Below, in pieces: positions 36,297-50,100 of a DNA stretch of 64,000 nt (within the stretch, counting starts at the first letter, position 1; every line of letters begins with the position of its first letter). The DNA is taken from positions 4,543,628 to 4,607,627 of the forward strand of contig NZ_CP116619.1 of the NCBI RefSeq assembly GCF_030409055.1, in the 5' to 3' direction. This DNA comes from Trichocoleus desertorum NBK24 (GTDB taxonomy: Bacteria; Cyanobacteriota; Cyanobacteriia; FACHB-46). Made by a program: the position numbers and the translations under genes. The notes beneath the pieces are model-generated. The model was given only the letters and a program-made list of their open reading frames with translations, searched no databases and had not been told where the DNA came from.

Positions 36297-37655
36297 ATGA
36301 GCCCGTTTGATCGTTCAGTTTCGCGTCGCAAGTTTTTGATCACTGCTGGAGCCTCTGCGGTGGGTTCTGTATTTCTTCACGGCTGTTTAGGAAATCCTCC
36401 CGATTCACTTACTAGGTCTCAAGCGGTACAACCTGTCTCAGCCGCTAACTTGAGCCCAGAGCAAAGGCCAGAAACTACCACGATTAAGCTGGGCTACATC
36501 CCTATTGTCGAGTCCGCCCCGCTGATCATTGCCAAAGAAAAAGGCTTTTTTGCTAGGCATGGCATGAGTGATGTGGTGCTCGATAAGCAGTCTTCTTGGG
36601 GCACCATGCGAGACAACACAGAAACGGGCTTCGAAGGCGGGGGGGTGCATGGAGGGCAATATCAGATGCCAATGCCTCACCTGATTTCGGAAGGAATCAT
36701 CACAAAGGGTAACAGAAAAATCCCGATGTACAACCTATTGCAACTCAATACGCATGGCAATGGGATTGCGATCGCGAATAAGTATCGAGATTTGGGGTTT
36801 GACTTAAATGCCACTCAGGCAAAGGGGTTAATCAGCAGGGAGAAGTCCGCAGGTTCTCAATTTGCAGCAGCACATACCTTTCCCCATGTAAACCAAGACT
36901 TCTGGATTCGCTACTGGTTCGCCGCAGGTGGAATTGATCCAGATAATGACATCAGTCTGCTACCTGTTCCCTCAGCCCAAACCGTCGCGAATATGAAGAC
37001 AGGTACGATGGGAGCCTTTAGTACTGGAGATCCTTGGCCTTACCGGATTGTGGCTGACAAAATTGGCTTCATGGCAGCTTTAACCGCAGAAATCTGGAAA
37101 GAACACCCGGAGGAATATCTGGCGATTCGGGCGGATTGGGTAGATAAACATCCCAAGGCTACCAAAGCGATTCTTAAAGCCGTCATGGAAGCCCAACAGT
37201 GGTGTGACGACTTCAACAATCGCCAAGAACTGTCTGAAATCTTAGCGGGTCGGCAATATTTCAACGTGCCCGTCAATGTCCTTCTCGATCCTTACATGGG
37301 CAAAATCGACATGGGCACAGGCCGCGTGATTGACGATCGCTCAATGGCTCCTCTGTACTGGAAAGGTGAAAAAGGCAGTGTTTCCTATCCTTTCAAGAGT
37401 CATGAACTGTGGTTCCTCACCGAGAGCGTGCGCTGGAACTTCTTACCTCCCGATACATTAGCAAGAGCTAAAACCATCATTGATGCAGTCAACCGAGAAG
37501 ACTTGTGGCGAGAGGCTGCTAAGGAATTAGGAGTTGCTGCTGCGGATATCCCTCAAGGTACTTCCCGTGGTGTGGAAACCTTCTTTGACGGCATCAAATT
37601 CGACCCAGAAAATCCCCAAGCCTATCTCGACAGCCTCCAGATTAAACGTGTGTAA
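36297..37655 (+). CDS. cmpA: Bicarbonate-binding lipoprotein of the BCT1 transporter
   Basis: 452 residues. High-affinity periplasmic bicarbonate-binding component of CmpABCD. Export signal: twin-arginine [18 protein letters not shown] followed by lipobox HGC (Cys30). It is assigned CmpA rather than nitrate-binding NrtA because it carries CmpA-type wording: [60 protein letters not shown] and [13 protein letters not shown]. Nrt proteins differ at these blocks. The context (CO2-uptake operon and ictB nearby, no nitrate genes) agrees. A good Shine-Dalgarno precedes the ATG at 36297. Confidence 0.93.
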
Positions 37656-37717
37656 GTAGATCATTTTAGTCCTGCTCCAAACCCTCAACCCTAAGCAACA
37701 CAAAGGAGAGTTTTCCA

Positions 37718-38545
37718 ATGACTATCAGTCTTAAAAGCCGCCGTCGTAGCTTTGATTTACTTGGTTCTGTTGGTAGCCTATTCAAGGCGATTAAGTCACC
37801 TGCGATCGCGATCGCCATCTTTTTAGTGATTTGGCAACTATTTAGCTGGCTACCTGGAGCTACACTTCCTGGCCCAATTCAGGTGGTGCAAGAGACTTGG
37901 ATTTTAATCATGTATCCTTTTTACGATCGCGGTGGCACCGATGTCGGCTTGTTCTGGCAGTTGCTGGCTAGCTTGAAACGGGTTGCTGTGGGCTTTACAG
38001 CTTCTGCTATTGTCGGTATCGCACTCGGTATCCTGATTGGAGTTAATACCGGGATCTACAAATCTCTTGACCCCCTCTTTCAGTTGTTACGCACCATTCC
38101 TCCCCTAGCTTGGTTGCCTCTCTCGCTTGCAGCCTTGCAGAAAAACGAACCTGCGGCTATTTTCGTTATCTTTATTACTTCTATTTGGCCGATTTTGATC
38201 AATACATCGGTAGGCGTTCGGCAAATCCCCCAAGACTACAACAACGTGGCTAGAGTGTTGCAACTCTCGAAACAGGAGTATTTCACCAGCATCCTGATTC
38301 CCTCTGCCTTACCCTACATTTTTACAGGCTTAAGAATTGGGATTGGTTTGTCCTGGTTGGCGATTATTGCGGCAGAAATGTTGGTCGGCGGTGTGGGGAT
38401 TGGCTTCTTCATCTGGGATTCCTGGAACGCCAATAAGATCAGCGAGATTATCCTGGCCTTGGTTTACATCGGTGTGGTTGGTCTCTTGTTGGACAAAGCA
38501 ATGGCCTATATCGAGACGTTGATTCTGCCTGCTGAGCAAAAGTAG
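37718..38545 (+). CDS. cmpB: Bicarbonate ABC transporter permease
   Basis: 275 residues, the BPD_transp_1 inner-membrane subunit of BCT1, with about six membrane helices. The EAA loop, which contacts the ATPases, is visible as NNVARVLQLSKQEYFTSILIPSALPYIFTGLRIG-like sequence near residue 175-205. N-terminal helix region AIAIAIFLVIWQLFSWLPG, then the LGILIGVNTGIYKSLDPLFQLLRTIPPLAWLPL stretch typical of the Nrt/Cmp/Ssu permeases. It starts 62 bp after cmpA with GGAG upstream. Confidence 0.94.
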   Translation: MTISLKSRRRSFDLLGSVGSLFKAIKSPAIAIAIFLVIWQLFSWLPGATLPGPIQVVQETWILIMYPFYDRGGTDVGLFWQLLASLKRVAVGFTASAIVGIALGILIGVNTGIYKSLDPLFQLLRTIPPLAWLPLSLAALQKNEPAAIFVIFITSIWPILINTSVGVRQIPQDYNNVARVLQLSKQEYFTSILIPSALPYIFTGLRIGIGLSWLAIIAAEMLVGGVGIGFFIWDSWNANKISEIILALVYIGVVGLLLDKAMAYIETLILPAEQK

Positions 38546-38665
38546 GGGCGATCGCTTCATTCCTTGTCATTCCTCGCGTTCCAAACTCACGCCCTTGCCA
38601 GTTCAGAGGATGCAGGCAGGCGTTGTCAACCTTACCTTCGATCAACCTTACCTTCGAGATGAACC

Positions 38666-40669
38666 ATGTCTACCTTTGTTGCCGTTGATCAAATTGATAA
38701 AGTCTTTCACCTGTCTGATGGTGGTGAATACATTGCCCTGAAAGGCATTGACTTGCAGATCCAAAAAGGAGAATTTGTCTCCCTGATTGGTCACTCTGGT
38801 TGTGGCAAATCTACACTCCTAAACATGGTGGCAGGGCTAGATCTGCCGACAGAAGGCATCGTGACACTAGAAGGGAAAAAGATTGCCCGACCTGGCCCCG
38901 ATCGCATGGTGGTGTTTCAGAACTACTCGCTATTGCCCTGGCGAACTGTGCGCGAAAACATTGCTCTGGCCGTGAATGCGGTGATGAAAGATTTACCCGT
39001 AAGTGAGCGCCGTTCCATTATCGAACAGCACATTGACATGGTGGGATTGCGACCCCACGCCGATAAGCCGCCCGCGATGTTATCCGGAGGCCAAAAACAG
39101 CGTGTCGCGATCGCCCGTGCCCTAGCAATTCGACCCAAACTGCTGTTACTAGATGAGCCTTTCGGAGCCTTAGATGCCCTGACGCGGGGTAACTTGCAAG
39201 AACAACTGATGAAAATCTGTGAGGAGAACCAAGTCACCGCGATTATGGTGACGCACGATGTGGATGAAGCGGTGCTGCTCTCCGACCGTATTGTCATGCT
39301 CACCAACGGGCCAGAATCCAAAATTGGGCAGATTTTAGAAGTAGATATTCCTCGGCCCCGCAAGCGCTTGGAAGTGGTAGAGCACCCAAGCTACTACAGC
39401 TTACGCAGTGAAATTATTTACTTCTTAAACCAACAAAAGCGAATTAAAAAGCTCCGGGCGCGAAAAATCACTGCGATCGCCCGTCATGGTCTAGAAAAAG
39501 TCAATTTGGAGATTGGTTTTGTACCGCTGACTGCTTGTGCACCTTTGGCGATCGCTAAAGAAAAAGGCTTTTTTGCCAAGCATGGGTTAGATGAAGTCAC
39601 CCTGGTGCGGGAAACCAGTTGGCGAGGTATTGTCGATGGCGTTGCTGGCGGATACCTAGATGCGGCGCAGATGCCATCAGGAATGCCGATGTGGTTAACG
39701 CTGGGAGGGCATGAGAATCGATCGCTTCCCACAGTGACTTCCCTCACCATGACCCGCAATGGCAATGCCATCACCCTAGCCAAGCGCTTTTATGAGGCAG
39801 GTGTATACACCCTCTCCGACTTCCGTCAATATCTCCATCGCACCTCGCAGCAGCGACACACAATGGGGATTGTCCATCCCTCTTCCATGCACAACCTGTT
39901 GTTGCGGTACTGGTTAGCTGCTGGAGGCATTGACCCAGATCAAGATGTCTCCCTCACCACAATTCCCCCCGCGCAAATGGTGGCAGACCTCCAGGCAGGG
40001 ACGATTGATGGCTATTGTGTGGGCGAACCTTGGAATATGCGTGCGACCGAAGAAGGCGCAGGCTTCGTCATTGCTACTGACCTGGAAATTTGGCTAGGGC
40101 ATCCAGGTAAAGTGCTGGGGGTACGGGAAGACTGGGCAGCCGCTTACCCCAATACCCACATTGCATTGGTCAAAGCCTTGCTCGAAGCAGGTCAATATTG
40201 TGCTGACCCCGCCAACGCCGAGGAAGTCCGTGAAATCCTGTCTCGCCGCGAGTATCTCAGCACGGATATGGCTTATATCCAGATTGAGGAGCATGACCCC
40301 ACTATCTGTGATCTGGATCACCCCATGCAAGAATATGCCCACCATCAGTTTTATGGGGAAGGGGTGATTAACCGTCCCAGTCGCACCGAACAGTTGTGGA
40401 TTATGACGCAGTTGGCCCGCTGGGGAGACACCCCGTTTCCACGTAATTGGGTGGAAATTTTGGAGCGAGTCTGCCGAGTTGGAGTCTTCAGCACAGCAGC
40501 TCGCGAACTAGGTCTGGAAGTGAACTACAACCGCACCCCGATTCAACTGTTTGATCAGGTGCCCTTTAACGCCGATGACCCGATCGCCTATCTCAACCAC
40601 TTGAAGATCAAACGCGCTTTCAGCGTTGCCGATGTCGCTGTGCAGCCCTCCACACGTACAGCTGCTTAG
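38666..40669 (+). CDS. cmpC: Bicarbonate ABC transporter ATPase fused to a CmpA-like domain
   Basis: 667 residues in two halves. The ABC ATPase (about 1-255) has Walker A GHSGCGKST (42-50), signature MLSGGQKQRVAIARAL and Walker B LLLLDEPFGALDALT. The C-terminal half (about 280-660) is a soluble CmpA/NrtA-like binding domain ([47 protein letters not shown]), which in NrtC/CmpC acts as a cytoplasmic regulatory sensor inhibiting or tuning transport. This fusion is specific to the Nrt/Cmp family. Complete and in frame. 120 bp separate it from cmpB. Confidence 0.95.
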   Translation: MSTFVAVDQIDKVFHLSDGGEYIALKGIDLQIQKGEFVSLIGHSGCGKSTLLNMVAGLDLPTEGIVTLEGKKIARPGPDRMVVFQNYSLLPWRTVRENIALAVNAVMKDLPVSERRSIIEQHIDMVGLRPHADKPPAMLSGGQKQRVAIARALAIRPKLLLLDEPFGALDALTRGNLQEQLMKICEENQVTAIMVTHDVDEAVLLSDRIVMLTNGPESKIGQILEVDIPRPRKRLEVVEHPSYYSLRSEIIYFLNQQKRIKKLRARKITAIARHGLEKVNLEIGFVPLTACAPLAIAKEKGFFAKHGLDEVTLVRETSWRGIVDGVAGGYLDAAQMPSGMPMWLTLGGHENRSLPTVTSLTMTRNGNAITLAKRFYEAGVYTLSDFRQYLHRTSQQRHTMGIVHPSSMHNLLLRYWLAAGGIDPDQDVSLTTIPPAQMVADLQAGTIDGYCVGEPWNMRATEEGAGFVIATDLEIWLGHPGKVLGVREDWAAAYPNTHIALVKALLEAGQYCADPANAEEVREILSRREYLSTDMAYIQIEEHDPTICDLDHPMQEYAHHQFYGEGVINRPSRTEQLWIMTQLARWGDTPFPRNWVEILERVCRVGVFSTAARELGLEVNYNRTPIQLFDQVPFNADDPIAYLNHLKIKRAFSVADVAVQPSTRTAA

Positions 40670-40685
40670 TCATTCGCCCCCCTAG

Positions 40686-40701
40686 CCCCCAATAGTGGGG
40701 G
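40686..40701. repeat. Hairpin between cmpC and cmpD
   Basis: CCCCCA/TGGGGG perfect stem with a 4-nt loop in the 84-bp gap. No T-run follows, so it is more likely an RNA-stabilising or processing stem than a terminator. Confidence 0.5.
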
Positions 40702-40753
40702 AACAGAACTTCCAACTACTCCTCACCCAAGACTAATAAGCTGAGATTTACCC

Positions 40754-41620
40754 ATGAATAATCGTCCCCTTGCTTACACCAATTCCGAGACCAGCAGCAC
40801 CAGACAACGCAGCGCGATCGCGACCTCTCCAGAACCGTTTCTTAGCATTCAAGATGTCTCCAAGGTCTACCCTACTGCTAATGGGCCTTATCCCGTTTTA
40901 CAAGGCGTGAACTTGACGGTGCAGCAGGGAGAGTTTATTTGTGTGATTGGTCACTCTGGCTGTGGCAAGTCTACCCTGCTCAACATGGTGTCTGGTTTCG
41001 CTACCCCCACCCGTGGCGAGGTACGGCTGCGATCGCAACCCATCACCCAACCTGGCCCCGATCGCATGGTCGTGTTTCAGAATTATGCGCTGTTGCCCTG
41101 GAAAACCGCCCTGGAAAACGTCTATATTGCCATTGACGCGGTACATAAGCAAAAGTCTAAAGCTGAGAAACTGGCGATCGCCCGTGACCACCTCGCCTTA
41201 GTGGGGTTGACAGAGGCGGCTGACAAAAAGCCCACCCAACTGTCTGGCGGGATGAAACAACGGGTGGCGATCGCCCGTGCTCTAGCGGTTCGGCCAGAGG
41301 TGTTGATTTTGGATGAACCCTTTGGCGCGTTGGACGCCATCACCAAGGAAGAACTCCAGGAAGAACTGCTAAAAATCTGGAATGACCACCGTTGTACGGT
41401 CTTGATGATCACCCACGATATTGATGAAGCGTTGTTTTTAGCAGATCGACTGGTGATGATGACCAACGGCCCCGCTGCTAATATTGGTGAGATCATGACC
41501 ATTCCCTTCCCTCGCCCCCGCGATCGCGCCCGGATTATGGAAGATCCGCACTACTACAAATTACGCAACCAAGCCCTTGATTTCCTCTACCACCGTTTCG
41601 CCCATGATGACGTTGGTTGA
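40754..41620 (+). CDS. cmpD: Bicarbonate ABC transporter ATPase
   Basis: 288 residues, the second nucleotide-binding subunit of BCT1, lacking the C-terminal sensor domain of CmpC. Walker A GHSGCGKST at about 66-74, Q-loop FQNYALLPWKTALENV, signature QLSGGMKQRVAIARAL, Walker B VLILDEPFGALDAIT, H-loop MITHDIDEAL. The N-terminal 30 residues are a polar extension (TNSETSSTRQRSAIAT). It ends the cmp operon; a small hydrophobic ORF follows at 41690 and DUF6671 at 41913. Confidence 0.95.
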   Translation: MNNRPLAYTNSETSSTRQRSAIATSPEPFLSIQDVSKVYPTANGPYPVLQGVNLTVQQGEFICVIGHSGCGKSTLLNMVSGFATPTRGEVRLRSQPITQPGPDRMVVFQNYALLPWKTALENVYIAIDAVHKQKSKAEKLAIARDHLALVGLTEAADKKPTQLSGGMKQRVAIARALAVRPEVLILDEPFGALDAITKEELQEELLKIWNDHRCTVLMITHDIDEALFLADRLVMMTNGPAANIGEIMTIPFPRPRDRARIMEDPHYYKLRNQALDFLYHRFAHDDVG

Positions 41621-41689
41621 GCTATTGCTTCCTAGGGTCTGTTTTTAACTTGTGCGCTGCTAACTCCTTGATTTTTGAGGTGTCTCGTC

Positions 41690-41836
41690 ATGGTTTCGGC
41701 AACTTCTAGCTTTCTCTTCATGCTCAACTGGGCCACGCAAGACTCGACTCCCACGCTCAACTTTGCCAGTTTTCTTTTCATTCTCACGAGCGCGATTGCC
41801 CTAGCGGCATTGCAAATAGCCCACAAACATTCCTAG
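41690..41836 (+). CDS. Possible 48-residue single-helix membrane protein
   Basis: Short ORF from ATG 41690 to TAG 41834-41836, below usual length cut-offs. The predicted peptide starts MVSATSSFLFMLNWATQD and has a hydrophobic segment (FASFLFILTSAIALAALQIA) ending in a basic tail (HKHS). It lies 69 bp after cmpD and before a GC-rich hairpin (41853-41875), so it could be the last cistron of the cmp transcript. No similarity recognised; the AGG seven bases upstream is a modest ribosome-binding site. It may be spurious. Confidence 0.35.
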   Translation: MVSATSSFLFMLNWATQDSTPTLNFASFLFILTSAIALAALQIAHKHS

Positions 41837-41852
41837 GAAACTAACGCCCCAG

Positions 41853-41875
41853 CCCCTTCTCTAGCCGGGAAGGGG
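41853..41875. terminator. GC-rich hairpin after the cmp gene cluster
   Basis: CCCCTTC (41853-41859) / GAAGGGG (41869-41875), 7-bp perfect stem, no clear T-run. Either a weak terminator or a repeat-type stem. Confidence 0.4.
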
Positions 41876-41912
41876 AAGTTATAAGAGTGGATGAGAACGC
41901 ATTTAAAGGCAA

Positions 41913-42776
41913 ATGTCAGAGACTTCTTTGTTTGGAAATCGGGTTGCTATCGTAGCAAACATGCATCACAAAGAACAGGTGATCGCCCCCATTCTAGAGT
42001 CAGAATTTGGCCTCAAAGTTTTTGTTCCTCCGAACTTAGATACCGATTGCTTCGGTACGTTTACCAGAGAGAAACTTCGTCCTGGAAACCAACTGGAAAC
42101 TGCTCGATTAAAAGCACTACACGCTTTATCACTGACGGGAGAAACGCTGGCGATCGCGAGTGAAGGAGCCTTTGGGCCGCACCCCCAAATTCCCTGGGTA
42201 TCCTGCGATCGCGAACTTGTTTTGTTGCTCGATCAACAGCAAGGAATTGAAATTATTGGAGAAACACTCTCCACAGAAACGAATTATGCTTCACAAACCA
42301 TTGCCAGCTACGCAGAAGCTCAAGCCTTCGCCGCCAAGGTAGGATTTCCGGCTCATGGATTAATTGTCATGAGCGATCGTGAGGCCAAAAACTCGCCAGC
42401 AGTTTTTAAGGGAATTCGGACAGCGGTGGGGCTTTATGAGGCAGTGACGCAAGCTTTGGCCCAGTCAGCCACAGGCCGTATCCACATTGAAACCGATATG
42501 CGGGCTATGTATAACCCCACTCGGATGCAGGCGATCGCTGCCGCTACCAAGGATTTGGTGAGAAACATTCGTCAGGTCTGCCCTCAATGTGGTTGTCCTG
42601 GGTTCGCCATCGTCGAAACCAGCCCTGGATTACCCTGCGGCCTCTGTCATTTGCCCACTCGGTTGACTCGCAGCGTTAGATATGAATGTCAAAAATGCTG
42701 TTATTGTCAAGAAGTTCTCTTTCCTAAGGGTCTGACAACTGCCGACCCCGCTCAATGTTTGTACTGCAATCCCTGA
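41913..42776 (+). CDS. DUF6671-family protein with C-terminal zinc ribbon
   Basis: 287 residues, function unknown. The N-terminal region (about 1-215) has a Rossmann-like alternation (RVAIVANMHHKEQVIAPIL) and repeated acidic and polar motifs (TDCFGTFTRE, IASEGAFGPHP, IMSDREAKNSPAVFKG, IHIETDMRAMYNPTRM). The invariant-looking Asp/Glu/Arg set suggests an enzyme. The C-terminal 70 residues contain about ten cysteines in CxxC pairs (CPQCGCPGF, CGLCHLPT, CQKCCYC, CLYC), a two-site zinc ribbon. It lies between cmpABCD and the CO2-uptake operon in the same orientation, which makes a link to carbon supply worth testing; nothing in the sequence proves it. Confidence 0.8.
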   Translation: MSETSLFGNRVAIVANMHHKEQVIAPILESEFGLKVFVPPNLDTDCFGTFTREKLRPGNQLETARLKALHALSLTGETLAIASEGAFGPHPQIPWVSCDRELVLLLDQQQGIEIIGETLSTETNYASQTIASYAEAQAFAAKVGFPAHGLIVMSDREAKNSPAVFKGIRTAVGLYEAVTQALAQSATGRIHIETDMRAMYNPTRMQAIAAATKDLVRNIRQVCPQCGCPGFAIVETSPGLPCGLCHLPTRLTRSVRYECQKCCYCQEVLFPKGLTTADPAQCLYCNP

Positions 42777-42855
42777 AGCCTGATGTAACCAACAGCTTTT
42801 AGATAAGCTTTTGTAGGCGATCGCGAATTTTACAACTTCAATAATAATCACTAAA

Positions 42856-42877
42856 ATCATAGATTTTTGTCTATGAT
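42856..42877. promoter_or_regulatory. Palindromic site upstream of ndhF3 (proximal to DUF6671)
   Basis: ATCATAGA (42856-42863) and TCTATGAT (42870-42877) form an 8-bp inverted repeat with a 6-bp spacer. TTGTCTATGATAA at 42867-42879 matches the cmpA-upstream site (opposite strand) at 12 of 13 positions. Confidence 0.55.
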
Positions 42878-42916
42878 AAATATTTGATATATTGATTTTT
42901 GTTTATATCTAAGTTA

Positions 42917-42935
42917 CTCTATGATGTTCATAGAG
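42917..42935. promoter_or_regulatory. Second palindromic site upstream of ndhF3
   Basis: CTCTATGA-TGT-TCATAGAG, perfect 8-bp arms with a 3-bp spacer, sharing the TCATAGA core of the first site, about 105 bp before the ndhF3 start codon. Confidence 0.5.
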
Positions 42936-43039
42936 CGAACTAGTTGATCGCTTTCAAGCCATCTTCAGGTGCCCCCTGAGCTTGCAAGCAGCCAACCCGC
43001 TCGTAACCCCTGTTTTTTAAACATAACTAATCAATTGCT

Positions 43040-44872
43040 ATGAGCCAGCTTCTCTTGCAGAGCGTCTGGTTGATTCCTTGCTATGCCTTAGTGGGCACGA
43101 TACTGGCAATTCCTTGGTCACCAGGATTGTTAGACCGCGTTGGCCCACGACCCGCAGGCTACCTCAACCTATTAATGACCAGTTTGGCGTTTGTCCATAG
43201 CCTTTTGGCCCTTCAGGCTATTGCGCAACAAGCACCCCAACAAATCCTTTTCCCTTGGCTCCAGGCAGCGGGCTTACAAGTAAATCTCACTTTCATGGTG
43301 TCTCCTGTAACCCTGGGCGCGATCGCGGTGGTTACTGGGCTGAATTTACTCACCCAACTCTATTCGATCGGCTATCTGGAGATGGATTGGGGCTGGGCTC
43401 GCTTTTTTGCCCTGATGGGCTTCTTTGAAGCGGGGGTATGCAGTCTAGCTCTTTGTAACTCTCTGTTTTTTAGTTATGTGTTTCTAGAATTGCTGACGCT
43501 AGCGACTTATCTTTTAGTCGGATTTTGGTTTGCGCAGCCATTAGTAGTGACTGGGGCTAGGGATGCCTTTTGGACGAAGCGTGTAGGCGATTTGATCCTT
43601 TTTATGGGTGTGCTTGCACTTTTCCCTTTAGCAGGTACCTGGAATTTTACAGAGCTAGAGACATGGGCTGCTACAGCTCAGCTGTCTCCATCCGCAGCTA
43701 CGCTTCTAGGCTTAGCTTTAATTGCAGGGCCACTGGGTAAATGCGCCCAGTTTCCCTTCCAACTCTGGCTCGACGAAGCGATGGAAGCTCCTATTCCTGC
43801 TTCGATCTTGCGGAACTCAGTGGTCGTTGGGGCAGGGGCTTATGTACTGATTAAACTGCAACCAGTTTTAGCGCTCTCTCCGGTAGCTTTGACTGCTTTG
43901 GTAGTCTTTGGAACTGCGACTGCTTTGGGAGCTTCCCTGATTGCGATCGCCCAAATCGATATCAAGCGCGCCTTGTCCTACTCGGTCAGTGCTTACATGG
44001 GCATGGTGTTTATTGCAGTTGGTACCCAACACCCTGAGGCAGCTCGGTTGTTGCTGTTAACTCAGTGTTGTGCTTTCGCCCTGCTGTTTATGAGTGCTGG
44101 GGCCGTGATTTGGAGTAATATCACCCAAGACGTGACCCAGTTAGGCGGTTTGTGGTCTCGACGACCCATTTCTGGTTTAGCCCTGCTGGTGGGGGCTGGT
44201 GGGCTAATTGCCCTGCCTCCCTTCGGCGGTTTTTGGGGACTATTACAGCTAGCCGATGCGTTATGGACAACCAAACCTTGGTTAGTCGGAGTCTTGTTAT
44301 TGGTGAATGGATTGACCGCTTTTAGTTTGATGCGCGTGTTTGGTTTAGTCTTTGGTGGCAAACCGACTCAAATGACGGAGCGATCGCCCGAAGTGCATTG
44401 GCCAATGGCTTTACCCATGTCTGTGTTGACTGTGTTCACGCTGTTGTTGCCCCTGGTGTTACAGCACTTCGATCTATTACCGAACTGGGCAGAATTGAAC
44501 AGGCAACTGGCTCCATTGCTTGTCTGGTCCACCGTCTTAGGTGTCAGTTTGGGTGGCGCAATTTATTTGGGCAATGCTTGGCCCAAACCAGTCAAGCTGT
44601 TCTGGCAACCCCTACAAGAGTTTTTGGCCCACGACTTTTACATTCAGCGGCTCTATCAACTCACAATTGTGAACTTGGTAAATTCCAGCGCTCGGTTGAC
44701 TGCTTGGTTCGATCGCCATGTTGTGGATGGTGCGGTGAATGCAGTAGGCTTTGTGACCTTGTTTAGTGGTCAAGCGTTGCGGTATACCGCGTCTGGTCAG
44801 TCGCAGTTATACGTTCTGTTGGTCATTTCCAGTTTGATTGCGATCGGATTTTTAGTTAGTTGGTCGTTCTAG
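43040..44872 (+). CDS. ndhF3: NDH-1 subunit F3 (CO2-uptake NDH-1MS)
   Basis: 610 residues, proton-pumping antiporter-like subunit of the inducible, high-affinity CO2-uptake form of NDH-1 in thylakoids. Many membrane helices. Conserved parts include VFLELLTLATYLLVGFWF, DAFWTKRVGDLILFMGV (NuoL-type Lys/Arg), LWLDEAMEAPIPASILRNSVVVGAG and the C-terminal DRHVVDGAVNAVG, which belongs to the lateral/transverse helix part. It is called F3 rather than F1 because the operon also encodes CupA and CupS. Palindromes at 42856-42935 mark its promoter region. A carbonic anhydrase gene starts 59 bp downstream. Confidence 0.93.
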   Translation: MSQLLLQSVWLIPCYALVGTILAIPWSPGLLDRVGPRPAGYLNLLMTSLAFVHSLLALQAIAQQAPQQILFPWLQAAGLQVNLTFMVSPVTLGAIAVVTGLNLLTQLYSIGYLEMDWGWARFFALMGFFEAGVCSLALCNSLFFSYVFLELLTLATYLLVGFWFAQPLVVTGARDAFWTKRVGDLILFMGVLALFPLAGTWNFTELETWAATAQLSPSAATLLGLALIAGPLGKCAQFPFQLWLDEAMEAPIPASILRNSVVVGAGAYVLIKLQPVLALSPVALTALVVFGTATALGASLIAIAQIDIKRALSYSVSAYMGMVFIAVGTQHPEAARLLLLTQCCAFALLFMSAGAVIWSNITQDVTQLGGLWSRRPISGLALLVGAGGLIALPPFGGFWGLLQLADALWTTKPWLVGVLLLVNGLTAFSLMRVFGLVFGGKPTQMTERSPEVHWPMALPMSVLTVFTLLLPLVLQHFDLLPNWAELNRQLAPLLVWSTVLGVSLGGAIYLGNAWPKPVKLFWQPLQEFLAHDFYIQRLYQLTIVNLVNSSARLTAWFDRHVVDGAVNAVGFVTLFSGQALRYTASGQSQLYVLLVISSLIAIGFLVSWSF

Positions 44873-44931
44873 ACCGCAGCATTTTTGGTTTCTTGTTGAC
44901 AGCATTTGTAGGCATAAAAGGATCAATCGTG

Positions 44932-45675
44932 ATGAGTGTTCGGAAACAGCTTTCCCGTCGAAACATGTTGAAGTTTGGTGCGGGAGCTTTGGGCAGTGGC
45001 GCGATCGCCGTTGGGTTGAGTGCCAAATCACAGGCAGCTCCACCAGCCGTGACCAAACCAGCCCCTACCACAGGCGCTGCCAAGGCAAAAGTTGCCAAGG
45101 ATGACCTCAGCCCGGAACAGGCGCTGAAACTCTTAATGGATGGCAACAAGCGCTTTGTGACTCGAAAGCTGGAACGGCCTCGTCAAGATTGGGCCAGAGT
45201 GCAGGAAGTTGCCAAAGACCAAACTCCCTTTGCAGCGGTCTTAAGCTGTGCTGATTCACGAATTCCCTCTGAGATTGTTTTTGACCAGGGATTTGGAGAT
45301 TTGTTTGTCTGCCGCGTTGCGGGCAATGTCGCAACCCCTGAGGAAATCGGCAGTTTGGAATTCGGGGCTGCGGTGCTGGGAACCAAAGTGATTATGGTAA
45401 TCGGTCACGAACGATGTGGAGCGGTAAAAGCCACGATCAAGGGGGCACAGGTGCCAGGACAAATTGGCAGCCTAATTGATGCGATTAAACCTGCTCTAAG
45501 TCGCACCAACAAGTTCACAGGTGATCCGCTGGCAAAGGCAGCGAAAGCCAATGTGTCGCTGCAAGTTGACAAGCTCAAGGCTTCCCCAGTACTAGCCGAT
45601 CTGATTGCATCAGGAAAACTGAAAGTAGTGGGTGCTTACTACGATTTGGATGCTGGAACGATCACGCTCGTTTAA
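44932..45675 (+). CDS. ecaB: Exported beta-carbonic anhydrase (EcaB-like)
   Basis: 247 residues from the ATG at 44932 (AAAGGA upstream); the longer frame from 44860 overlaps ndhF3 and is rejected. A Tat signal (SRRNMLKFGAGALGSGAIAVG) predicts export. The beta-CA zinc site is complete: Cys106 and the Asp108/Arg110 dyad in CADSR, His159 and Cys162 in GHERCGA. The mature enzyme starts near residue 40. It interconverts CO2 and bicarbonate. It lies between ndhF3 and ndhD3 in one operon (59-bp and 30-bp gaps), pointing to a role coupled to the NDH-1MS complex. The symbol is by resemblance to Synechocystis EcaB; orthology is not proven. Confidence 0.9.
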   Translation: MSVRKQLSRRNMLKFGAGALGSGAIAVGLSAKSQAAPPAVTKPAPTTGAAKAKVAKDDLSPEQALKLLMDGNKRFVTRKLERPRQDWARVQEVAKDQTPFAAVLSCADSRIPSEIVFDQGFGDLFVCRVAGNVATPEEIGSLEFGAAVLGTKVIMVIGHERCGAVKATIKGAQVPGQIGSLIDAIKPALSRTNKFTGDPLAKAAKANVSLQVDKLKASPVLADLIASGKLKVVGAYYDLDAGTITLV

Positions 45676-45705
45676 TTGGTTCATCTTGCTGGAGTAAATC
45701 GCGTC

Positions 45706-47232
45706 ATGCTCAGTACAATCATTTGGCTGCCTGTGTTGGGCGCTGCTTTAATCGGATTTTGGCCGCAAACCTGGAGTCCACAGCGATCGCATTTTGTGGC
45801 TTGGGCAATCGCGGGTTTAACTTTTCTCGCCGCAGTATTCTTGGCGATCAACTTCGACTTTCAAGCATCGGGGCTGCAATTTCAAGAACATATTAGTTGG
45901 ATCGCTCCCCTTGGTCTCGACTATCGCCTAGGAGTGGATGGGTTGTCGTTGCCGTTGGTGGTGCTGAATGGGTTCCTAATTTGGATCGCAATTCAAAGCA
46001 CCCCTAAGCAAGTGTCCCGCCCTCGACTGTTCTACTCACTAATCTTCTTGCTGAGTGCCGCAGTGGCGGGAGCTTTTCTCGCCCAGAACTTGCTGTTGTT
46101 CTTCTTGTTCTACGAGCTAGAGCTGATTCCCCTCTATTTACTAATCGTGATTTGGGGGGGCGATCGCCGAGGCTATGCAGCAACCAAGTTTCTGATTTAC
46201 CAAGCACTCTCCGGGATTGTCTTGTTGATTGGATTTCTGGCTTGGGCTTGGGCGAGTGGATCGAGCACCTTCACAGTGGAAGTAGAAGCGTTGGCTTCTT
46301 CCTTACCAATGGGACTGCAACTCATATTGCTCTCGATTCTGATTCTAGGCTTTGGGATCAAAATGCCCCTGGTACCCTTCCATACTTGGCTACCGGATGC
46401 CTATGTAGAAGCCTCCACGCCTGTTTCAATTTTGTTAGGCGGCATTGTTTCTAAACTGGGCACCTATGGCTTGATCCGATTTGGCCTTGCTTTGTTTCCC
46501 GATGCGTGGCATGTGGTAGCACCTTGGTTGGCTACTGCGGCTGTCGTTACCTCTTTGTATGGCGCTTTGGTGGCGATCGCTCAGACCGACATGAAGAAGA
46601 TGATCGCCTACAGCTCTGTCTCCCACCTCAGTTATGTGTTGCTGGCTAGTGCAGCTGCTACGGAACTGAGTCTCTTGGGTGCGGTTTGCCAGATGGTGGC
46701 TCACGGCTTGATCTTGGCACTCCTGTTCTATCTCGTGGGTGTGATTGAAGCCAAAACAGGTAGCCGCGATTTGGCTCAACTGCAAGGACTGTTAAACCCT
46801 AAGCGTGGATTGCCTTTAATCAGCGGAATTTTAATCTTGGGGACAATGGCGAGTGCTGGAATTCCTGGAATGGTCGGCTTTGTCGGTGAGTTTCTCAGCT
46901 TTCAAGGGAGCTACATCATGTTTCCGGCGCAAACGCTGCTTTGCCTAGCCAGTACTGGACTCACCTCAGTTTATTTTGTGCTTCTGATTAACCGAGCGTT
47001 GTTTGGTCGCTTAGAAGACAAGCTCAGCTACCTGCCTAAGGTGACTTGGGAAGAACAAATCCCGGCGATCGCTCTAATCGCTTTGATTGTTCTATTAGGG
47101 GTGCAACCGAATGCGCTTGTGAGATGGAGTCAAACCACTACCAATTCTCTCGTGGCAATGGTGGCTGAGCACAGCCCACAGCAGGTTGCTCTCACCCCGC
47201 ACTCCCCTCAATCCGAAATAGTGAACCCATAA
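45706..47232 (+). CDS. ndhD3: NDH-1 subunit D3 (CO2-uptake NDH-1MS)
   Basis: 508 residues from ATG 45706 (GGAG upstream); the TTG at 45676 immediately after the CA stop is not needed. NuoM-type antiporter-like subunit with about 14 helices: MLSTIIWLPVLGAALIGF, DYRLGVDGLSLPLVVLNGF, LLFFLFYELELIPLYLLIVIWGG (functional Glu), GFGIKMPLVPFHTWLPDAYVEASTPVSILL, IAQTDMKKMIAYSSVSHLSYVLL. Pairs with NdhF3 to form the CO2-uptake-specific membrane arm extension carrying CupA. Confidence 0.94.
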   Translation: MLSTIIWLPVLGAALIGFWPQTWSPQRSHFVAWAIAGLTFLAAVFLAINFDFQASGLQFQEHISWIAPLGLDYRLGVDGLSLPLVVLNGFLIWIAIQSTPKQVSRPRLFYSLIFLLSAAVAGAFLAQNLLLFFLFYELELIPLYLLIVIWGGDRRGYAATKFLIYQALSGIVLLIGFLAWAWASGSSTFTVEVEALASSLPMGLQLILLSILILGFGIKMPLVPFHTWLPDAYVEASTPVSILLGGIVSKLGTYGLIRFGLALFPDAWHVVAPWLATAAVVTSLYGALVAIAQTDMKKMIAYSSVSHLSYVLLASAAATELSLLGAVCQMVAHGLILALLFYLVGVIEAKTGSRDLAQLQGLLNPKRGLPLISGILILGTMASAGIPGMVGFVGEFLSFQGSYIMFPAQTLLCLASTGLTSVYFVLLINRALFGRLEDKLSYLPKVTWEEQIPAIALIALIVLLGVQPNALVRWSQTTTNSLVAMVAEHSPQQVALTPHSPQSEIVNP

Positions 47233-47336
47233 TGTCCTGAGCAATTTTCACGCCCTGAACATACGACGCGATCGCTTAGCCAGAGTTTCTTGAATCAATT
47301 CCTATCCCGTCCTATCCCGAAAAGGAGATCTGCAAC

Positions 47337-48623
47337 ATGACAACTGCAACTGCAACCCAGCTACCTCCTTCTACCCATGAATTTGCCGAGGTGATTCATC
47401 GGTTAGAAGCGGGTGGTGCCATGCTGCCTGACACGCCAGAAAACCTCATGCAAATTATCGGCATCTACAAAGCCTATGCGGTGCCGATGGATTTTTACTG
47501 GCGAGATCTCCTTTATATTGCTGAGCGAGTCTTCCTCAATCCCTTGCCCTTTTTCAAGTACTTCCTCCCTCAAGAATATTTAGATTTACATAACCACTAC
47601 GCCGGAGACGACGCAGATTTGCGGATTTGGCGAGGCGAAGCGACCGCCCATCCAGAACTGCTTGCATTCATGCAGAAGGGCGAAACCACCCAAATGCCCA
47701 AGCTGTTCCACCATTTGCTGCACGATCGCGTCAATATGGAGTTTGCCGAAGCTTGTATGCGAGCGATGTTGTGGCATCGGGGCATGGGTGGCAAGTTTGA
47801 CCCCTACCTCGACACTCCCGAATACAAAGCCGCTGCCGATCGCGCCATCAAGGCCTACTTCAAGGGCAATCCTGCGATGCTGGGCCTCTACAAGCTATTC
47901 CCAGAGATGTTTATTGAGCAGGTGCGGCAGTTGTCTTACTATGCCAACCTGGGATTGTTTTGGGAAGTCATGGCTCCCGTGTTCTTTGAGATGAGCGATC
48001 GCTACGATTGCGGGGAAATCACCACCGTTCCCGAAGCGATGAATTTCTTGGTGAATGGTATCTTTGCCGTCGCAGGCCGTCCCATTTACCACCACGTCTA
48101 CATCGACGGAGAGTGCTACGAAATCATCCCCAAATCCTGCGGATTTACCTGGCTCTACGAAGCTGCTCTCCCCTATGTGGAAGCCGTTTTCTATCGCACT
48201 GCTCCCTTCCGGGGCACCAAGTCCTACAACGCTCAAGCGGAGCAAGTTCCAGCCGAGCAGAAAGATTTCCACTATGGCATTCTTTACGCCGATGTCAATC
48301 CTGTCGGGACAGCAGGGATTCCTCCGACACTGCTGATGCAGGATATGTTGCACTTCTTGCCCCCCTACTTGGTGGACTATTACCAGCAACATTGCCGTGG
48401 CAAAGATGACATGCTGATTCAGCTAGGCGTGACTTTTCAGCGATCGATGTATTGCGTGACTTCAGCAGTCATTCAAGCACTCCGGACGGCGTTGCTTTAC
48501 CCCTTAGATGATCAAAATCCCAAGCATTTGCAAGCCAATCGAGAGTTCTTTGAAGCGCAGATCGATCGCTTTAAGCGTCCAGAAGCTCGCTTGCGGGATA
48601 TTCAGTCTCAATCTTATCGATAA
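47337..48623 (+). CDS. cupA: CO2 hydration protein CupA (ChpY)
   Basis: 428 residues, cytoplasmic-side protein on NdhF3/NdhD3 that converts CO2 to bicarbonate vectorially. Recognised by LPDTPENLMQIIGIYKAYAVPMDFYWRDLLYIAE, HHLLHDRVNMEFAEACMRAMLWHRGMGG (the His/Arg pair that in the known complex sits near the zinc), VNGIFAVAGRPIYHHVYI and YGILYADVNPVGTAGIPPTLLMQDMLHFLP. Length fits CupA. A strong AAGGAG precedes the ATG. The 104-bp gap from ndhD3 contains a small CCTATCCCG direct repeat. Confidence 0.95.
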   Translation: MTTATATQLPPSTHEFAEVIHRLEAGGAMLPDTPENLMQIIGIYKAYAVPMDFYWRDLLYIAERVFLNPLPFFKYFLPQEYLDLHNHYAGDDADLRIWRGEATAHPELLAFMQKGETTQMPKLFHHLLHDRVNMEFAEACMRAMLWHRGMGGKFDPYLDTPEYKAAADRAIKAYFKGNPAMLGLYKLFPEMFIEQVRQLSYYANLGLFWEVMAPVFFEMSDRYDCGEITTVPEAMNFLVNGIFAVAGRPIYHHVYIDGECYEIIPKSCGFTWLYEAALPYVEAVFYRTAPFRGTKSYNAQAEQVPAEQKDFHYGILYADVNPVGTAGIPPTLLMQDMLHFLPPYLVDYYQQHCRGKDDMLIQLGVTFQRSMYCVTSAVIQALRTALLYPLDDQNPKHLQANREFFEAQIDRFKRPEARLRDIQSQSYR

Positions 48624-48653
48624 ATAATCCTACACCCTGAAACCTCAAACACT

Positions 48654-49055
48654 ATGGCTGATATTGTTGATATTGCAGTGAGTGCAGGTTCCTTTAATAC
48701 TTTGGTAGCAGCAGTCCAAGCCGCAGGTTTAGTTGATACGCTGAAAGGCCCAGGCCCATTTACAGTCTTTGCGCCGAATGATGCCGCCTTTGCCAAACTG
48801 CCGCCCGGAACCATTCACACCTTGCTGCAAAATATTCCTCAATTGGCGCGGATTCTTACCTATCATGTCGTGTCGGGTAAATGGACTCAAGCTGACCTGG
48901 CAAAGGTAGACTCTCTCACCTCTGTAGAAGGTTCTCCCATCCGCCTGGATTTATCCGATGGCTTTGAGGTCAAAAATGCCACGGTGGTTGCTCCGGACAT
49001 TGAAGCCGATAATGGCGTTATTCACGTCATTGACAATGTGATTTTAATGGGCTGA
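48654..49055 (+). CDS. cupS: Fasciclin-domain subunit CupS
   Basis: 133 residues, one fasciclin (FAS1) domain: [56 protein letters not shown] and [13 protein letters not shown]. There is no signal peptide. CupS is the small soluble subunit at the tip of the NDH-1MS complex next to CupA. It starts 30 bp after cupA and is the last gene of the operon; an inverted repeat follows. Confidence 0.93.
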
Positions 49056-49066
49056 ATTAGTGTTGC

Positions 49067-49111
49067 AAGGGCGATCGCGCTAGGTTTGTATGAATTGCGA
49101 TCGCTCCCTTT
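49067..49111. terminator. Inverted repeat between convergent cupS and peptidase genes
   Basis: AAGGGCGATCGC (49067-49078) pairs with GCGATCGCTCCCTTT (49097-49111) apart from one bulged base. Probably a bidirectional terminator built from two HIP1 octamers. Confidence 0.55.
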
Positions 49112-49131
49112 GCCCTGACCTATACCTCAGC

Positions 49132-50100
49132 CTACTTATCTCGTCGAATTCGATTGATCTCTTTTTGCAGTTCCTCCAATTGCCGCCGCAACTCTTCTGC
49201 TTCGGCTTGAGGCGATTTTGCCGAAGTATTGACCGCTCCTGCCGCTTCAGCACGGGCATAATGACCTTGGCGAATCTGGCGGTATTCTTCTGAGCTGGCC
49301 CATTCGCGGATGTAACGAATGCGCTCAACTGGGAAAGGATGGCTGAGCATGGAGCCTTGAGAGCCGTTGCCGTTGTAGAGCAAAAACTTGTAGATCTGGT
49401 TCAAGCCATCTTGGTCTAGCTCTTGGTAGCTTTCCGATTGGCGGATAAATTCATTTAAGCTGCACTCTTGCAGATGCTTGCTGCTGCCACCCGCAATTTT
49501 CATCATGGTTTGCATAACTAACGTTAGGTCGTCGGTGGCGAGGAGTGCGGCGCGATCGGAAGTCAGTTCGGCTTTGCGTCGCCATTCGTAAAAGGCATAG
49601 ATTAAACCACTGCCAACGATGTTGCCTAAACCCATCGTCATTTCTCCGAGCGCTGCTACCATCTGAATGGCCCAATTCGCCATCTGGATCAAAGTAGTAT
49701 GACCGCATTTGATGTGGCCTAATTCATGAGCCAGCACAACTCGAATTTCAGCGTCGCTGAGTAAGTCCAACAGTCCTGTATGAAGGACAATATAAGGATG
49801 CTCTTCTCCCAAGGCGTAACTGTTAGCCAGAGGATTTTGCACCACAAACAGAGAAGGCTCTGGGTGAATGTCTAGGTCGCGGACACATTCGCGAAAAAGG
49901 TGATAGATCGAGGCGTACTGACGAGGGCCAACTTGAATGCTGTTGCCCATTAAATAAATCAGTTGGGGCCGTTCGTAGAGAAATTCCACAAATTTCCGAG
50001 CCACGAGATCGAAGCCAGGGACATTGCGTAGAGCTTGCTCGGCTTGGCGATCGAGGGGATGCCGAAATGCTTCACTCGAAATTCCTGGATAGGTAGGCAT
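49132..50100 (-). CDS. M48-family metallopeptidase
   Basis: 322 residues. Zinc site HELGH at 125-129 (VVLAHELGHIKCGH) with the downstream Glu in RRKAELTSDRAALLA, typical of M48 peptidases. The catalytic domain (about 55-265) is followed by a C-terminal coiled coil (AEAEELRRQLEELQKEINRIRRD). A hydrophobic segment follows HELGH (about 140-170), so it may associate with membranes, but no N-terminal signal is seen. It probably takes part in protein quality control (inference). Related cyanobacterial homologues are stand-alone genes; here it is convergent with cupS. Confidence 0.9.
   Translation of the reverse strand: MPTYPGISSEAFRHPLDRQAEQALRNVPGFDLVARKFVEFLYERPQLIYLMGNSIQVGPRQYASIYHLFRECVRDLDIHPEPSLFVVQNPLANSYALGEEHPYIVLHTGLLDLLSDAEIRVVLAHELGHIKCGHTTLIQMANWAIQMVAALGEMTMGLGNIVGSGLIYAFYEWRRKAELTSDRAALLATDDLTLVMQTMMKIAGGSSKHLQECSLNEFIRQSESYQELDQDGLNQIYKFLLYNGNGSQGSMLSHPFPVERIRYIREWASSEEYRQIRQGHYARAEAAGAVNTSAKSPQAEAEELRRQLEELQKEINRIRRDK

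Follow-up and report, generated by a model that had tools for sequence, protein, structure and literature searches.

A predicted EcaB-type exported β-carbonic anhydrase gene inside the NDH-1S operon of cyanobacteria

Introduction

EcaB (Slr0051) of Synechocystis PCC 6803 is described as a thylakoid-associated β-carbonic anhydrase (CA) (Sun et al. 2019, as cited in PMC10096703, PMC9283085 and PMC11360081). One review presents the enzyme as mostly thylakoid-bound, more abundant at low Ci and interacting with CupA/B (PMC10096703), and another associates it with both NDH-1MS and NDH-1MS′ (PMC9283085). EcaB was first found in the periplasm, and PCC 6803 is stated to possess only one external CA gene (PMC11360081). 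The picture of a thylakoid-associated, NDH-1-linked enzyme, on which the original prediction for the present locus drew, is the one reported in these two reviews. Older data, noted in PMC9865033, conflict with it: in these, EcaB was periplasmic and considered inactive.

The genetic setting of the low-CO2 complex is also well described. The order ndhF3-ndhD3-cupA-cupS without a CA gene, given for model strains in the original prediction, agrees with the published operon (PMC11456788). Furthermore, a nonpolar channel leading from the luminal side to the zinc site of CupA has been proposed in NdhF3 (PMC6981117).

Here we analyse a stretch of 64,000 nucleotides (the window) from Trichocoleus desertorum NBK24, in which a CA gene lies between ndhF3 and ndhD3. 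No description of a CA inside the NDH-1S operon was found in the open-access papers searched; the study of CCM genes in Microcystis by Sandrini et al. 2014 may show one. What seems new is an EcaB-family CA built into an otherwise known NDH-1S operon, and we are unsure of priority.

Organization of the locus

The CA gene and its neighbors are listed in Table 1. The gene occupies the predicted place between ndhF3 and ndhD3, on the same strand and with gaps of 59 and 30 bp, and the single strand and short gaps from ndhF3 to cupS fit membership of the operon. Its ATG is preceded at about 9 nucleotides by AAGGA, a ribosome-site-like sequence, and its stop codon ends at 45675. A longer frame, beginning with a TTG at 44860, is open as well, but the sister genome G025 has the ATG at 44932 in common. 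The mechanical reading frame of ndhD3 likewise starts at a TTG upstream of the ATG.

Table 1. Features of the ndhF3-cupS region (window coordinates)
Feature	Position	Strand	Evidence
sigma-70-like promoter match, upstream of ndhF3	42829..42857	+	promoter scan, weak
ndhF3, NDH-1MS membrane subunit	43040..44872	+	TIGR01960 944 bits (cut-off 588.7), ORF list
operon β-carbonic anhydrase (CA), EcaB-type family, 247 aa	44932..45675	+	Pro_CA 134.7 bits (cut-off 25.7)
putative twin-arginine signal peptide, SRRNMLK, AxA at about residue 35, without lipobox	44932..45036	+	motif
ndhD3, ATG start	45706..47232	+	NDH_I_M 518.9 bits; homologues begin at same ATG
cupA (ChpY), CO2 hydration subunit	47337..48623	+	TIGR01964 774.8 bits (cut-off 293.7)
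cupS, fasciclin-domain subunit	48654..49055	+	Pfam Fasciclin 134 bits; 3′ of cupA in many loci

A scan of positions 41500-49500 for promoters and terminators, in which match numbers were no higher than in shuffles, returned no plus-strand promoter-like match in either gap flanking the CA; the sole match on that strand lies upstream of ndhF3. A weak hairpin at 44861-44876 overlaps the ndhF3 stop codon and counts against co-transcription. Upstream of ndhF3, no NdhR/CcmR operator (TCAATG-N10-ATCAAT, at most 3 mismatches) was detected, and matches to this pattern were fewer than expected by chance, which makes the result uninformative.

Directly upstream of the ndhF3 operon, a cmpABCD-type bicarbonate transporter operon (36297-41620) completes a Ci-uptake cluster. 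Its substrate-binding protein is closer to CmpA than to NrtA (594 bits to 2i48 vs 438 to NrtA). A DUF6671 protein is encoded between cmpD and ndhF3 (41913-42776), and homologues occur just upstream of ndhF3 at loci L035 and L089; it is a candidate for an uncharacterised CCM gene.

Catalytic site and export signal

The product is predicted with confidence to be a β-class carbonic anhydrase. The residues named in the original prediction (Cys106, Asp108/Arg110, His159 and Cys162) are all present and are invariant in 22 aligned operon CAs. They form the Cys-His-Cys zinc ligands and the Asp-Arg dyad of a CxDxR...HxxC pattern and align with those of Mycobacterium tuberculosis Rv3588c, the closest solved relative by sequence (E 2e-30). 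An AlphaFold model of moderate confidence (mean pLDDT 70.7) has 2a5v as its best PDB match (Foldseek E 1.7e-16).

The N-terminus, MSVRKQLSRRNMLKFGAGALGSGAIAVGLSAKSQA, carries a twin-arginine motif followed by a hydrophobic stretch and an AxA-type site. This motif and layout fit the Tat signal proposed earlier, and a lipobox cysteine is absent from this N-terminus. Across genomes, the catalytic motifs and the arginine pair are found in 45/45 distinct operon CAs; 42 of the 45 fit a stricter twin-arginine motif, and the remaining three show SRR in the N-terminus. A lipobox was matched in none of the 45.

The genome encodes three β-CAs: the operon CA, CcaA (L238:1896-2669) and a second RR-type enzyme. 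CcaA was considered as the identity of the window CA and rejected, given an identity of about 25% over the aligned part and the export signal of the window CA. In genome G015 (L254:7042), ndhF3 is preceded on its own strand, at a distance of about 440 bp, by a CcaA-type CA.

Distribution of the arrangement

CA and NdhF3 were each searched in 390 genomes of the class. The ndhF3 region was then extracted from 120 genomes chosen by NdhF3 similarity alone, a sample ranked by closeness to the window NdhF3 and not random, and 118 of these could be judged. Excluding the window, 18 of the 118 carry an intact CA between ndhF3 and ndhD3. In 97, no CA match was obtained there at standard sensitivity (median gap 113 bp), which indicates that the CA is not essential to NDH-1MS. 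Three genomes retain CA remnants at this position (L061, L070 and L085), and a more sensitive scan of the 97 revealed two further CA tails (L073 and L108), giving five remnant genomes in total.

Intact operon CAs occur in at least seven families (f1, f16, f19, f26, f31, f32 and f34); the table behind this count also holds the genome of the window and four others included for their CA. Because it recurs in at least seven families, the ndhF3-CA-ndhD3 order is far beyond chance. Carriers include Fischerella muscicola PCC 7414, Nostoc linckia FACHB-104, Calothrix membranacea, Anabaena sp. UHCC 0187, Microcystis aeruginosa LEGE 91341, Oscillatoria princeps, Laspinema and Chlorogloea. A search for CA genes near ndhF3, of the kind suggested with the original prediction, finds the same position conserved in many families. 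A one-off insertion, which would have undermined that prediction, does not describe these data, as both other sampled genomes of the window's genus also have the CA there. The gaps between ndhF3 and CA and between CA and ndhD3 reach several hundred bp in some genomes, so that, judged by spacing, co-transcription is not universal.

At L124:7451-8963, one of the 18 intact cases, a tandem pair of diverged CAs separates ndhF3 from ndhD3. In L069, L074, L084 and L138, ndhD3 is in several frames or pieces, reflecting frameshifts or assembly errors. CupA is divergent in L107, L112 and L143, being only about 70% identical to the window CupA vs roughly 77-90% in most others. Thermocoleostomius sinensis A174 (G192/L123), where ccaA1 expression is markedly higher at low CO2, has no CA between ndhF3 and ndhD3.

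Relation to EcaB

Two Synechocystis genomes, assigned by their plasmids (100% matches), served for comparison: PCC 6714 (G390) and PCC 7338 (G217). A single RR-type CA was found in each, and we take it as EcaB since PCC 6803 is stated to have one external CA gene. In the CA tree, these orthologs form a clade (support 100/99) with operon CAs from Microcystis, from Hydrococcus and from G230, a genome placed in the Synechocystis genus; the clade also takes in two other non-operon rows. The window CA belongs to the same wider family and falls outside this 100/99 subclade, in a tree whose root is weak and in which EcaB is represented by the PCC 6714 and PCC 7338 orthologs. Sequence identity of the PCC 6714 ortholog is 48% with the window CA and 55% with the operon CA of Microcystis. 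These relationships support a place for the window CA in the wider EcaB family, in which it may or may not be an ortholog of EcaB itself.

The placement of the gene varies within the Synechocystis genus: it lies in the ndhF3 operon in G230, beside sbtA-sbtB in G064 and by itself in G390 and G217, and it was not detected in G258. The original prediction held that an insertion into the operon would make the link between EcaB and NDH-1 genetic. The link is real and conserved, with a CA of the EcaB family, but for many lineages 'insertion' into a standard operon probably reverses the course of events, as CA remnants persist in at least five genomes that lack an intact gene.

Linkage to other Ci-uptake genes

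The second RR-type β-CA of the genome lies directly 3′ of sbtA-sbtB on the same strand (L237:3831-5958; C1:5331330-5333457 in the genome's own coordinates). The sbtA-sbtB-CA order recurs in G025, G040 and G006, in Nodosilinea (L185, L198) and in Shackletoniella (L199). A CA adjoins an SbtA-like gene in MAGs labelled Gemmatimonadota (L232), Verrucomicrobiota (L229) and Actinomycetota (L209). In a Chamaesiphon MAG (L180:6001-6672), the CA is 95 bp downstream of a cupB-like gene, which ties the family to the other CO2-uptake complex. Lastly, a supercluster in G020 (L099) comprises an NDH-1MS′-type set, sbtA-sbtB, a CA, ndhF3-ndhD3-cupA and a second CA directly after cupA.

Selection and evolutionary history

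In three genomes of the window's genus, dN/dS is 0.10-0.13 for the CA vs 0.05-0.07 for ndhF3, values indicative of purifying selection on the operon CA. Across 43 loci, the pairwise distances of the CA correlate with those of NdhF3 (r = 0.754), a value that none of 2000 permutations attained (maximum 0.322). This correlation fits common descent of the unit and by itself is not proof of contact.

The operon label requires 7 changes on the CA tree, whose root rests on the very long CcaA branch and is unreliable, and CA presence requires about 20 changes on the NdhF3 tree. The five genomes with CA remnants demonstrate losses in several lineages, and there is good support for an older arrangement from which the CA was repeatedly lost or relocated. 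Trees and remnants together are compatible with repeated loss, relocation and some recombination. An alternative origin, which would fit either functional model discussed below, is repeated gain of the CA at this position through homologous recombination of the neighboring ndh genes. In its favour, close relatives on the NdhF3 tree often differ in whether they have the CA, and the operon label needs 7 changes on the CA tree; against it, five genomes keep remnants in this position, which show loss, and the divergences of CA and NdhF3 agree. We consider multiple gain rather unlikely.

Since the root of the CA tree is weak, no claim is made that the arrangement is ancestral for all. A more speculative scheme, to which we attach a similarly low probability, would see the EcaB-type exported CA as an ancestral NDH-1MS accessory, acting where the NdhF3 gas channel opens to the lumen. 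Its gene would have been in the operon in early relatives and later lost or moved (as in Synechocystis). Sister CAs would serve SbtA and NDH-1MS′ likewise, each high-affinity Ci uptake system having an exported CA of its own.

Possible role of the operon carbonic anhydrase

The best explanation of the locus, which we hold to be somewhat probable, is that the gene encodes an exported β-CA of the EcaB family, member of an NDH-1S operon ndhF3-CA-ndhD3-cupA-cupS, which would serve NDH-1MS from the non-cytoplasmic face. Presumed co-transcription would tie production of the CA to that of the low-CO2 CO2-uptake complex. Exported in folded form by the Tat pathway, it would act on the non-cytoplasmic side and hold CO2 and bicarbonate in rapid equilibrium. 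A lumenal rather than periplasmic site may be envisaged, where the acidity of the thylakoid lumen would favour CO2 and set the direction of the reaction. CO2 could then pass through the proposed NdhF3 gas channel to the CupA zinc site and be released as bicarbonate in the cytoplasm, which would couple the CA functionally to CupA. The CA would in this way replenish CO2 at the channel mouth, especially at acid pH. The strict export signal of the operon CAs agrees with PMC6981117, where a cytoplasmic CA is reported to do harm when CO2 is low. Two points are less comfortable. The lumenal model needs a source of lumenal bicarbonate, which counts against it, and the reported contact between EcaB and CupA is topologically puzzling because CupA is cytoplasmic and a Tat product is not.

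The Tat system of cyanobacteria serves both membranes, and this supports the main rival, a periplasmic CA sharing low-CO2 regulation. Such an enzyme would work at the cell surface, interconverting bicarbonate and CO2 so as to recapture CO2 that leaks out or to supply several uptake systems; it would make no direct contact with NDH-1MS, and the operon would provide only induction at low CO2. The original periplasmic finding of EcaB (PMC11360081) agrees with this, as do related CAs adjoining the bicarbonate transporter genes sbtA-sbtB and the cmpABCD operon upstream of the window operon, which suggests a general Ci-uptake role. Yet the bulk of EcaB is reported on thylakoids and linked to CupA/B, and the CA is placed specifically between two NDH-1MS membrane subunits and co-diverges with NdhF3. 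We judge the periplasmic reading possible, though unlikely. Alternatively, the locus might be merely tolerated or transcriptionally convenient, the CA having no functional tie to NDH-1MS. A passenger of this kind would account for the patchy distribution (about 20 changes on the NdhF3 tree), for the recurrent decay of the CA and for the fact that NDH-1MS works without it in most strains. It sits poorly with the conserved order and strand, with a catalytic site and export signal kept in 45/45 and with EcaB biochemistry; moreover, the repeated linkage of the family to sbtAB, cupB and cupA, together with cmpABCD, favours a general role in Ci uptake and makes a passenger less likely. We regard it as improbable.

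An exported CA serving NDH-1MS, as preferred here, bears on where CO2 enters the complex (lumen or cytoplasm) and on the role of EcaB. Being operon-encoded and strictly exported, the CA would provide independent support, from genetics, for a CA partner outside the cytoplasm. Microcystis, Nostoc, Fischerella and Anabaena provide strains for direct tests of co-expression, location and knockouts, and close relatives with and without the operon CA constitute natural comparison pairs.

Comparison with known systems

Rv3588c (2a5v) is nearest to the window CA in sequence and fold; however, this M. tuberculosis enzyme has no link to a CO2-uptake complex and belongs to another organism and context. 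The carboxysomal β-CA CcaA is of the same enzyme class and shares the CxDxR and HxxC motifs, but lacks the export signal of the window CA and is encoded separately in the same genome. The genes around the window CA match the NDH-1S operon of NDH-1MS in identity, order and strand, the published model-strain operon being without the CA and the window operon with it. EcaB, finally, is like the window CA a Tat-type β-CA. A putative lipobox, absent from the window CA, forms part of the description of EcaB; it was matched in neither Synechocystis ortholog (PCC 6714, PCC 7338) and may therefore not truly define EcaB. Another difference is one of location in the genome: the EcaB orthologs of PCC 6714 and PCC 7338 are solitary, with no adjoining ndh or sbt gene, whereas the window CA resides inside the operon.
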